64,000 bases of DNA from Chthonomonas sp. (GTDB lineage: Bacteria > Armatimonadota > Fimbriimonadia > Fimbriimonadales > Fimbriimonadaceae). This document shows positions 24,187-26,276 of this stretch, one piece after another; positions within the stretch are counted from its first letter, which is position 1; the number at the start of each line of letters is the position of its first letter. A program made the position numbers and the translations under genes. The stretch spans positions 93,282 through 157,281 of the forward strand of contig JAEURQ010000003.1 of assembly GCA_016788425.1 (NCBI GenBank), read 5' to 3'. The notes beneath the pieces were generated by a model, which was not told the DNA's origin, ran no database searches, and saw only the letters and a program-made list of their open reading frames with translations.

Positions 24187-24209
24187 CGCCGCGCCCGGCC
24201 GGGGCCACG
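24187..24209 (+). repeat. 23-bp GC-rich direct repeat, copy 1
   Basis: Twenty-two of 23 bases match the segment at 26069-26091. The pair brackets the small accessory island with three unknown genes. The core gcccggccggggc is itself nearly palindromic. Confidence 0.75.
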
Positions 24210-24312: not shown

Positions 24313-24564
24313 ATGAACAACTACATTCAAATCAAATCCAGCAATAAAGCTCAGCCGACCATCCACTTCGTTGCGATGGAGCACATTTATCGAATTGATA
24401 TCGTGCGAGAAAATAGGGTCCGCATATTCTTTGGGAGCTGCTCAGTCACCTTGTCCGTTCCTTTCGAAACACCATCGATTGGCGAAATTCTAACTGCTCT
24501 TCAGAACAATAGTCCAACTTTCTTTGTGCTGGAAGGACATGACCCATTCCAGTTAGGTGGCTGA
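24313..24564 (+). CDS. Hypothetical protein, 83 aa
   Basis: An unrecognised small protein beginning MNNYIQIKSSNKAQPTIHF. It is noticeably AT-richer than the surrounding genes and uses AT-ending codons, suggesting a foreign origin. It looks like a compact beta-strand protein (HIYRIDIVRENRVRIFFGS). No signal peptide or cysteine motif is seen. No ribosome binding site or well-placed -10 is clear, so the start is uncertain. A terminator-like hairpin follows at 24645. Confidence 0.5.
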   Translation: MNNYIQIKSSNKAQPTIHFVAMEHIYRIDIVRENRVRIFFGSCSVTLSVPFETPSIGEILTALQNNSPTFFVLEGHDPFQLGG

Positions 24565-24674: not shown

Positions 24675-24725
24675 TTCTGTTAGTGGAGCCTCAGTAAATG
24701 GGCGCTGATAATCACGCCGCTCCCG

Positions 24726-24866
24726 AAAAATCTCCGGCATATCCCGCAAAACAATCCGCATTTCCCGGGAAAAATCGCGCCAATCCCACAAAACACTCCA
24801 CCGATCCACGCAAAAAACACACCCAGAACAACAAACCCCTGACGAATCCCGGGAATCCGCCGAAAA
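24726..24866. other. Phased A-tracts, about 21-bp period (predicted curved DNA)
   Basis: Runs of 3 to 6 A centred near 24728, 24749.5, 24772, 24791.5, 24814.5 and 24834, and another at 24864.5, are spaced about 21 bases apart (two helical turns). The surrounding unit is a degenerate 21-base tandem repeat. Both strands have an open frame here, but their products (for example 24680-24886 on the minus strand) are low-complexity and are not called. The block fills the 345-base gap between genes at 24565-24909. Confidence 0.6.
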
Positions 24867-24909
24867 TTACAACAACTGGCCATCAAACTTGGCCACGGAG
24901 AATATCAAA

Positions 24910-25545
24910 ATGCCCGAATGGATCTATTCAAATCGATTGGAACTGCAAGTGCAGGCCACCAAGTTCAGTAACGGGATCACGAGTCTTGGCACCGGGCTCG
25001 GACTTACCGCCGGCGAAGTCACCGCGTTTGGCAACGCGTTAACCCTTTACAACAGCGACATGACCACCTGGGAAGATGCGCAGGTCGCCGAGAAAAGCGC
25101 CGGTCAAACGTTCTACAAAGACAAGGGCGACCTGACCAGCCTGATGCGCAAGTACAACAAGCGCATGCAAGCATCGGCTGGCATCACCAACGCCAAGCGC
25201 GCGGAGATCGGGCTGCCGATTCCGGGCACAAGCACGACGGTGACCCCGAAGAAGGTGCTGGAACTGCTGGCCACGCCCGTGAGCGACGGCACGGTGAAGC
25301 TAAAGTGGAACCGCAGCGGCAACGCTTCGAGCGTGATTTTCATTGTCGAGCGCAGTTCGGACGGTGTGGAATGGGAGTTCGCGGCGAACTCGACCTCGGT
25401 GAAGATTACGCTGAGCGACTACGCGCCGGGCGTGCAAACGTTCTTCCGAGTGGTCGCCTCGCGCGGCGCGCTTCTGGCCACACCGAGCGATCCGGTTGTG
25501 ATCTATGGCGGCGGCGAAGGCGTGCAACTGCGCGTCGCGGCGTAA
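24910..25545 (+). CDS. Fibronectin type III-like domain protein, 211 aa
   Basis: An unrecognised protein, with a mostly helical N-terminal half (about 1-95, FSNGITSLGTGLGLTAGEV...) and a C-terminal fibronectin-III-like fold (about 115-200: VKLKWNRSGNASSVIFIVER...WEFAANS...FFRVVASRG). The ATG at 24910 follows GGAG at 9-10 bases and is preferred over an in-frame TTG at 24889. There is no signal peptide. The last 38 bases of this gene's end region are repeated at 25971-26008, implying an insertion or duplication just behind it. It is possibly structural; function is unknown. Confidence 0.72.
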   Translation: MPEWIYSNRLELQVQATKFSNGITSLGTGLGLTAGEVTAFGNALTLYNSDMTTWEDAQVAEKSAGQTFYKDKGDLTSLMRKYNKRMQASAGITNAKRAEIGLPIPGTSTTVTPKKVLELLATPVSDGTVKLKWNRSGNASSVIFIVERSSDGVEWEFAANSTSVKITLSDYAPGVQTFFRVVASRGALLATPSDPVVIYGGGEGVQLRVAA

Positions 25546-25548
25546 CGC
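25511..25548 (+). repeat. 38-bp direct repeat, copy 1 (gene 3' end)
   Basis: It covers the final coding bases and stop of the FN3-like gene and matches 25971-26008 at 37 of 38 positions. Confidence 0.85.
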
Positions 25549-25566
25549 CAAGAGCGGAGACTGCAC

Positions 25567-25601
25567 GAGACCCCTCTCGCCCGTACGGCGGGAGGGGTCT
25601 C
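25567..25601. terminator. Large GC-rich hairpin (terminator-like)
   Basis: The arms at 25567-25581 and 25587-25601 pair at 14 of 15 positions around a 5-base loop. No T-tract follows on the plus strand, so it may act as an RNA 3' stabiliser instead of a true terminator. Confidence 0.55.
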
Positions 25602-25677
25602 GCGCTTCGTCCGACAGCCATGGGAAATTCTTTGAAAAGCAGTGAACCTTGGCTACGGCTAAGGCGTATGAGGGTAG

Positions 25678-25962
25678 ATGGACCTTCTTACGCTAGTAGA
25701 ACAACAAAAATCAATTTATCTTCGATCTTCAAACTTCGAAAAAGAGTACATTCGCAACTCACGAGATTTGGAGGCATTTCATCTTTCTGATGGAAAAGTC
25801 GTAATGAAATTTGCGGGCGAGGAAAGATCTTTCACAACGATATTCCAATGTAAAGTTAAATTGATAGAATCGATTCTCGCAAACGAACCAATCGTTCTTG
25901 CCGAGTTTGTGAAAAGGGAGAGGAGAAAGCGATCATATGTTGGTGGCTATATAGTGCCGTAG
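25678..25962 (+). CDS. Hypothetical protein, 94 aa, in an inserted segment
   Basis: An unrecognised protein starting MDLLTLVEQQKSIYLRSSNF, AT-rich relative to its neighbours. AGGG precedes the ATG by 3 bases. It contains no membrane segment and ends in a basic stretch, VKRERRKRSYVGG. It lies entirely between two copies of a 38-bp direct repeat, so it was probably acquired as a unit of about 460 bp. Base use is like the 83-residue gene at 24313, hinting at a common source. Confidence 0.55.
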   Translation: MDLLTLVEQQKSIYLRSSNFEKEYIRNSRDLEAFHLSDGKVVMKFAGEERSFTTIFQCKVKLIESILANEPIVLAEFVKRERRKRSYVGGYIVP

Positions 25963-25970
25963 TTTGACCT

Positions 25971-26008
25971 GCGGCGAAGGCGTGCAACTGCGCGTCGCAG
26001 CGTAACGC
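25971..26008 (+). repeat. 38-bp direct repeat, copy 2
   Basis: It repeats the FN3-like gene's 3' end including the stop (one mismatch). The true terminator at 26029 follows this copy, suggesting this is the original gene end, displaced by the insertion. Confidence 0.85.
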
Positions 26009-26028: not shown

Positions 26029-26063
26029 CACCCTCGTTGAATCGGCGAGGGTGATTCTGTTTT
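26029..26063 (+). terminator. Rho-independent terminator
   Basis: CACCCTCG (26029-26036) pairs perfectly with CGAGGGTG (26046-26053) over a 9-base loop and is followed by attctgtttt. Confidence 0.75.
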
Positions 26064-26068
26064 CGGTG

Positions 26069-26190
26069 CGCCGCGCCCGCCCGGGGCCACGCCCTCCTCT
26101 TGCTCGCGGGGCTCGCGGCGAGGCTGCGCCCGGGCCCGGCGAGCAAGCCACTCCGCCCTCGCTTCCGCGGAAGCCTAGCCCCGCCGGGGC
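26069..26190. repeat. GC-rich block of nested palindromes with 23-bp repeat copy 2
   Basis: Bases 26069-26091 match 24187-24209 at 22 of 23 positions. They are followed by an inverted repeat CTTGCTCGC (26099-26107) with GCGAGCAAG (26139-26147), the 14-bp palindrome GCTTCCGCGGAAGC (26161-26174) and the hairpin GCCCC-gcc-GGGGC (26178-26190). GC-rich sequence continues to about 26245. Together with the terminator it fills the 326-base gap before the HAF gene. It resembles an intergenic structured repeat or the footprint of a mobile element. Confidence 0.6.
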
Positions 26191-26276
26191 AAAGCGACGA
26201 GCGAAGCGTGGTCGCGCGGGAGTGGCACGTGGGCCGGCGGGGCGATAAAAATGTCAACTTTCGGCAACACTTGGCG

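Follow-up and report, generated by a model that had tools for sequence, protein, structure and literature searches.

A duplicated gene end flanks an AT-rich orphan reading frame in Chthonomonas sp.: a possible one-off insertion behind an FN3-like gene

The 3' end of an FN3-like gene of Chthonomonas sp. is present twice in the window (the whole stretch of DNA analysed, 64,000 nucleotides of one contig), and the 2 copies enclose an AT-rich segment that differs sharply in composition from the host genes (Table 1). A repeat search of the 64-kb window showed that the copies form a 38-bp direct repeat in which 37 of the 38 positions (97%) are identical, with a spacing of 460 bp and a single mismatch, a G in copy 1 and an A in copy 2. 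Pairs of 38-bp matches of this quality are expected by chance about 2e-11 times in the whole window, and the ungapped repeat score is 35, whereas shuffled versions of this locus and of similar ones reach no more than about 13. When the complete genome (2.67 Mb, 4 contigs) was searched with the 38-mer, it was found at 2 sites only, both of them at the repeat locus. The original prediction had placed the repeat and its mismatch at exactly these coordinates, and the genome-wide search, which yielded no further copies, excludes that the 38-mer is a common intergenic element. We tentatively favour the reading that, in a one-off event, DNA was inserted into the 3' end of the FN3-like gene and 38 bp of the target were duplicated.

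Table 1. Features of the duplicated gene end and its surroundings (positions within the window).
Feature	Coordinates	Strand	Basis or description
Degenerate, probably non-coding array, 21/42-bp period, upstream of FN3-like gene	24711..24858	+	Lag matches, thresholded region
FN3-like gene	24904..25545	+	Predicted helical N-terminal part, FN3-like C-terminal part; ends LRVAA, stop
Repeat copy 1	25511..25548	+	FN3-like gene's final codons, stop, next 3 bases
Strong hairpin, 19-nt arms, without T run	25563..25605	+	Repeat search and folding
94-aa AT-rich ORFan	25678..25962	+	ORF; GC by codon position 49/32/36
Repeat copy 2	25971..26008	+	Non-coding; differs from copy 1 at one base (G to A)
Intrinsic-terminator-like hairpin with T run after copy 2	26029..26063	+	Sequence

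The 2 copies occupy different contexts. Copy 1 encodes GEGVQLRVAA followed by the stop codon and then CGC, so that the end of the FN3-like gene is intact, and copy 2 begins 8 bp past the stop of the 94-aa ORF. The edges of the repeat are sharp, identity breaking off at both ends, and similarity to the FN3-like gene extends no further left than the first base of copy 2. Copy 1 reads GCG GCG TAA, a sequence also found in the close relatives L035 and L037, and the corresponding GCA of copy 2 is the derived form.

Within the 464 kb sampled (the window plus 400 kb more of the genome), no patch is richer in AT than the segment between the copies, and the other AT-rich patches in those 400 kb have no flanking repeats. 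As originally predicted, the segment contains an AT-rich ORF of 94 residues and a hairpin. The GC content of the ORF by codon position contrasts with that of the host genes, which is approximately 60-70/45/79. When the segment was dinucleotide-shuffled 2000 times, an ORF of this length arose in 39 cases (2%), and for this reason the 94-aa ORF is a probable rather than a certain coding gene. No relative of it was found in 61 close genomes, in 291 genomes of the phylum or among genome contigs, plasmids, phages and viral contigs, and it is therefore classed as an ORFan; searches of Pfam, NCBIfam, PHROGs and PADLOC likewise returned no significant family. An AlphaFold2 model built with no alignment predicted three strands followed by helices at low confidence (pLDDT 58), and a fold search with this model gave no Foldseek match at E <= 0.001, the best Z of 4.9 being uninformative. 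We infer that the ORF is expressed, and assign it no role other than that of a small gene for an orphan protein.

Both copies are followed by a hairpin. The one behind copy 1 starts 14 bp downstream and is by far the more stable of the two (MFE -47.4 kcal/mol over an 86-nt stretch, z -4.3). Downstream of copy 2, a hairpin at 26029-26053 precedes ATTCTGTTTT, and this arrangement with a T run resembles the terminators of most other FN3-family genes, which lie within ~60 bp of the stop. The prediction that only the second copy is directly followed by a terminator thus holds with regard to the T run, but not with regard to the hairpin, since copy 1 has the stronger one at a short distance. In addition, the stem of the copy 1 hairpin contains GAGAC / GTCTCGCGC, which it has in common with the terminator of the genome's other FN3 gene (L055), and this hairpin could be the native terminator of the FN3-like gene.

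The gene whose end is duplicated belongs to a dispersed single-gene family with 0-27 copies per genome: 2 in its own genome, 27 in the same-genus genome G001 and 0-12 in the other genera of the taxonomic family, with relatives found in G001, G016, G021, G023 and G025. Its coordinates assume the ATG start, the ORF opening with TTG at 24889. The match of the protein to the fn3 profile falls below the cut-off (E 0.07), and its structure model is unusable (pLDDT 38). The gene shares the traits of the family, namely a protein of ~215 aa, a C-terminus that, in most members at the loci examined, consists of AA preceded by a hydrophobic residue, and, behind the stop, a terminator-like hairpin, which most FN3-family genes carry as their own. 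The conserved hydrophobic-AA C-terminus is reminiscent of an ssrA-type tail. The ends of FN3-family paralogues have little DNA identity and are not conserved at the DNA level. None of the ~40 other FN3-family loci examined repeats its gene end nearby, which makes the duplication peculiar to this locus and not a trait of the family.

Insertion of foreign-looking DNA fits this anatomy because of the sharp edges, the AT-rich ORFan, the intact gene end and the displaced terminator. According to the account that we tentatively favour, ~422 bp of AT-rich DNA with a small ORF would have been captured at a staggered break, or in a similar repair or recombination event, and 38 bp of the target would have been duplicated so that a copy borders the insert at either end. 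At copy 1 the FN3 reading frame would have stayed intact, the original FN3 terminator would have been moved 460 bp further downstream, past copy 2, and the latter, as non-coding DNA, would later have gained one change. In favour of insertion are the unique repeat with its exact edges, the AT-richness of the segment, a third-position GC of 36 against ~79 in the host, and an ORF with no relatives in the collections searched; against it are the lack of an empty site among the relatives compared, the copy 1 hairpin, which can be read as a native terminator, and the shuffles that give an equal ORF in 2% of cases. Moreover, 38 bp is long for the target duplication of known transposons, which also counts against this account. 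The direction of the event, insertion rather than copying, would follow mainly from the T-run hairpin, as found in relatives, being located behind copy 2, and from the derived base in copy 2; break-and-fill is the putative mechanism. In this respect the locus resembles break-repair insertions with fill-in target duplication, which are single events with captured filler, a duplication of arbitrary length and no machinery left behind, although the duplication here is long. A search of the literature yielded nothing directly relevant. Read in this manner, the locus would be one more footprint of a small orphan gene placed behind an existing gene with no damage done, and it would gain in value only through direct sight of the event in a relative with an empty site or through further FN3-family loci of the same kind.

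The main rival is a templated copy, in which template switching or a short gene conversion placed a copy of 38 bp of the FN3 3' end in the spacer upstream of the next terminator, the AT-rich ORF and the hairpin being already downstream of the FN3 gene and no gene being inserted. It holds this position because the copy 1 hairpin is readable as a native terminator: it lies at the distance typical of FN3-family terminators and has the stem sequence in common with the genome's other FN3 gene. Both edges of copy 2 being sharp also suits copying. The T run, however, is missing from the copy 1 hairpin and present in the copy 2 hairpin, and the end of the repeat only 3 bases past the stop would be a coincidence, a position for which the insertion account needs no explanation. 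On balance, we consider copying rather unlikely.

Distinctly less likely is a deletion scar, with copy 2 representing the final 38 bp of a tandem second FN3-family gene whose body was deleted. FN3-family genes are sometimes adjacent, as on contig 127 of G001, where 2 of them lie 28 bp apart, and on contig 144 of the same genome, and most of them have a terminator of their own. But paralogue ends elsewhere share so little DNA identity that a match of 37/38 would need a recent duplicate, and the only recent-looking pair (L052/L054) remains similar for ~110 bp past the stop, compared with 3 bp here. That FN3 similarity breaks off where copy 2 begins is also at odds with this scenario.

The original prediction went further than an insertion and suggested a gene cassette recently added by recombination. 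The insertion-like anatomy at a gene 3' end agrees with that description, but a cassette system does not emerge from the data, as the 38-mer is unique, the copies have no core sites and the window has no integrase match. In its explicit form, a site-specific recombinase or integron-like system would have inserted a 460-bp circle, leaving attL and attR. A site at a gene 3' end, a restored gene end and a direct repeat are the footprint of site-specifically inserted elements, which counts for a cassette, and a direct repeat of the gene end, as expected of an integrase-mediated 3'-end element, does flank the insert. Against this, attC core sites (RYYYAAC / GTTRRRY) are absent from both copies, the sole match lying mid-insert; no array of further cassettes was found in the genome; none of the 9 integrase matches detected genome-wide falls within the window, either in the element or next to it; and no terminal inverted repeats of the DDE transposon or MITE kind occur at the ends of the insert or of the repeat-bounded unit. 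Since the FN3 end is not conserved in DNA, there would be little for an element to gain from carrying it. A mobile cassette is for these reasons quite improbable.

Genomic islands and satellites that tyrosine recombinases place at gene 3' ends show the same direct repeat of the 3' end, the restored gene end and foreign-looking DNA in between; unlike them, this locus has no integrase match in the window, spans only ~420 bp, has an unconserved target gene and has no second example. Integron gene cassettes similarly have one small AT-rich ORF of unknown origin with a hairpin nearby, whereas here the copies contain no attC core sites, there is no array and the repeat is part of a coding gene. Membership in an integron was rejected on the grounds of the missing core sites in the copies and the missing array. 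A Cas1-type staggered integration was also rejected, since no Cas1 match was obtained in the genome, while control genomes did match.

An assembly artefact, in which unrelated stretches were joined via the repeat, has very little probability, given that the copies differ by one base, that a 38-bp repeat is a short basis for a false join and that the ORF and the repeat lie within one 536-kb contig of a genome that is 99.9% complete in 4 contigs. Diversity-generating retroelements also have 2 near-identical copies, one of them at a gene 3' end, and the direction of the mismatch (A in copy 2) would fit copy 1 as variable repeat and copy 2 as template, but here the repeat is only 38 bp with a single mismatch and the genome's only RT match is on contig C4, the locus being on C3, with the 38-mer absent near it, so that this explanation is refuted for practical purposes.

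We also compared the locus with its relatives. G001, of the same genus, is devoid of the methyltransferase that adjoins the FN3-like gene upstream here, no FN3 gene was found within 1.5 kb of that methyltransferase in the relatives possessing it, and no relative carrying an FN3 gene at the same place was found. Because the methyltransferase-bearing relatives show no FN3 gene beside it, the FN3 gene itself may be a guest at this place.

A feature that would be more surprising to a specialist than the repeat itself is the degenerate tandem arrays upstream of many FN3-family genes; the one before the FN3-like gene of this locus scored 59 matches of 96 at lag 42 against a null maximum of 43. With 54 lags tested, the best lag was 21 or 42 in 27 of 41 regions upstream of FN3-family genes, whereas this was so in 3 of 40 control regions downstream, where scores stayed at null level. 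Across 404 kb (the window plus related sequence), thresholded arrays were almost confined to lags 21, 42 and 63, the period being exactly 21 bp and often strongest at 42, and in 464 kb of the genome the array before the window's FN3 gene was the only one of period 21/42 above threshold. Array sequences are locus-specific. Because their mismatches are not tied consistently to any codon phase, and because all forward frames of several arrays contain stops, they are probably non-coding. Besides the window, arrays upstream of FN3 genes were observed at L035, L038, L047, L048, L060, L063, L066, L068 and others, and 2 arrays precede non-FN3 genes (L043, 1309-1578; L062, 975-1250, the latter before a gene for a HAF-type secreted protein). 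No description of such 21/42-bp arrays was found in the literature searched. It is highly improbable that the FN3-like genes constitute an unrecognised, expandable family with its own upstream arrays of 21-bp phase and locus-specific sequence, that the 3' ends of its genes can be entry points for foreign genes and that one such entry is seen at this locus.

Some minor elements surround the locus. A GC-rich, partly palindromic intergenic repeat at 26069-26250 is partially matched at ~38 other places in the genome, which often lie in clusters 0.1-3.5 kb apart, and a 22-bp piece of it is also found at 24188-24209. This 22-bp repeat (24188 and 26070) was considered as a frame around the whole island and rejected, as it belongs to this dispersed GC-rich family. 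Upstream of the FN3 gene, at 24313-24564, there is an AT-rich ORF of 83 aa for which searches revealed neither a second copy in the same genome nor relatives among viral contigs nor significant families; its length is no better than chance (294 of 2000 shuffles), and it has no similarity to the 94-aa AT-rich ORF on the other side of the FN3 gene. Reading by eye, the close family members of G001 (L035-L038) have in common a GAGGCTCGGCCTC hairpin ~30-120 bp upstream of the FN3 start and an apparent short leader ORF before the gene. Finally, the motif AGGTTCAAA / TTTGAACCT, or its one-base shift, is present in 8 of 41 regions upstream of FN3 genes (L046, L049, L052, L060, L068 and others) and in 0 of 40 downstream regions.
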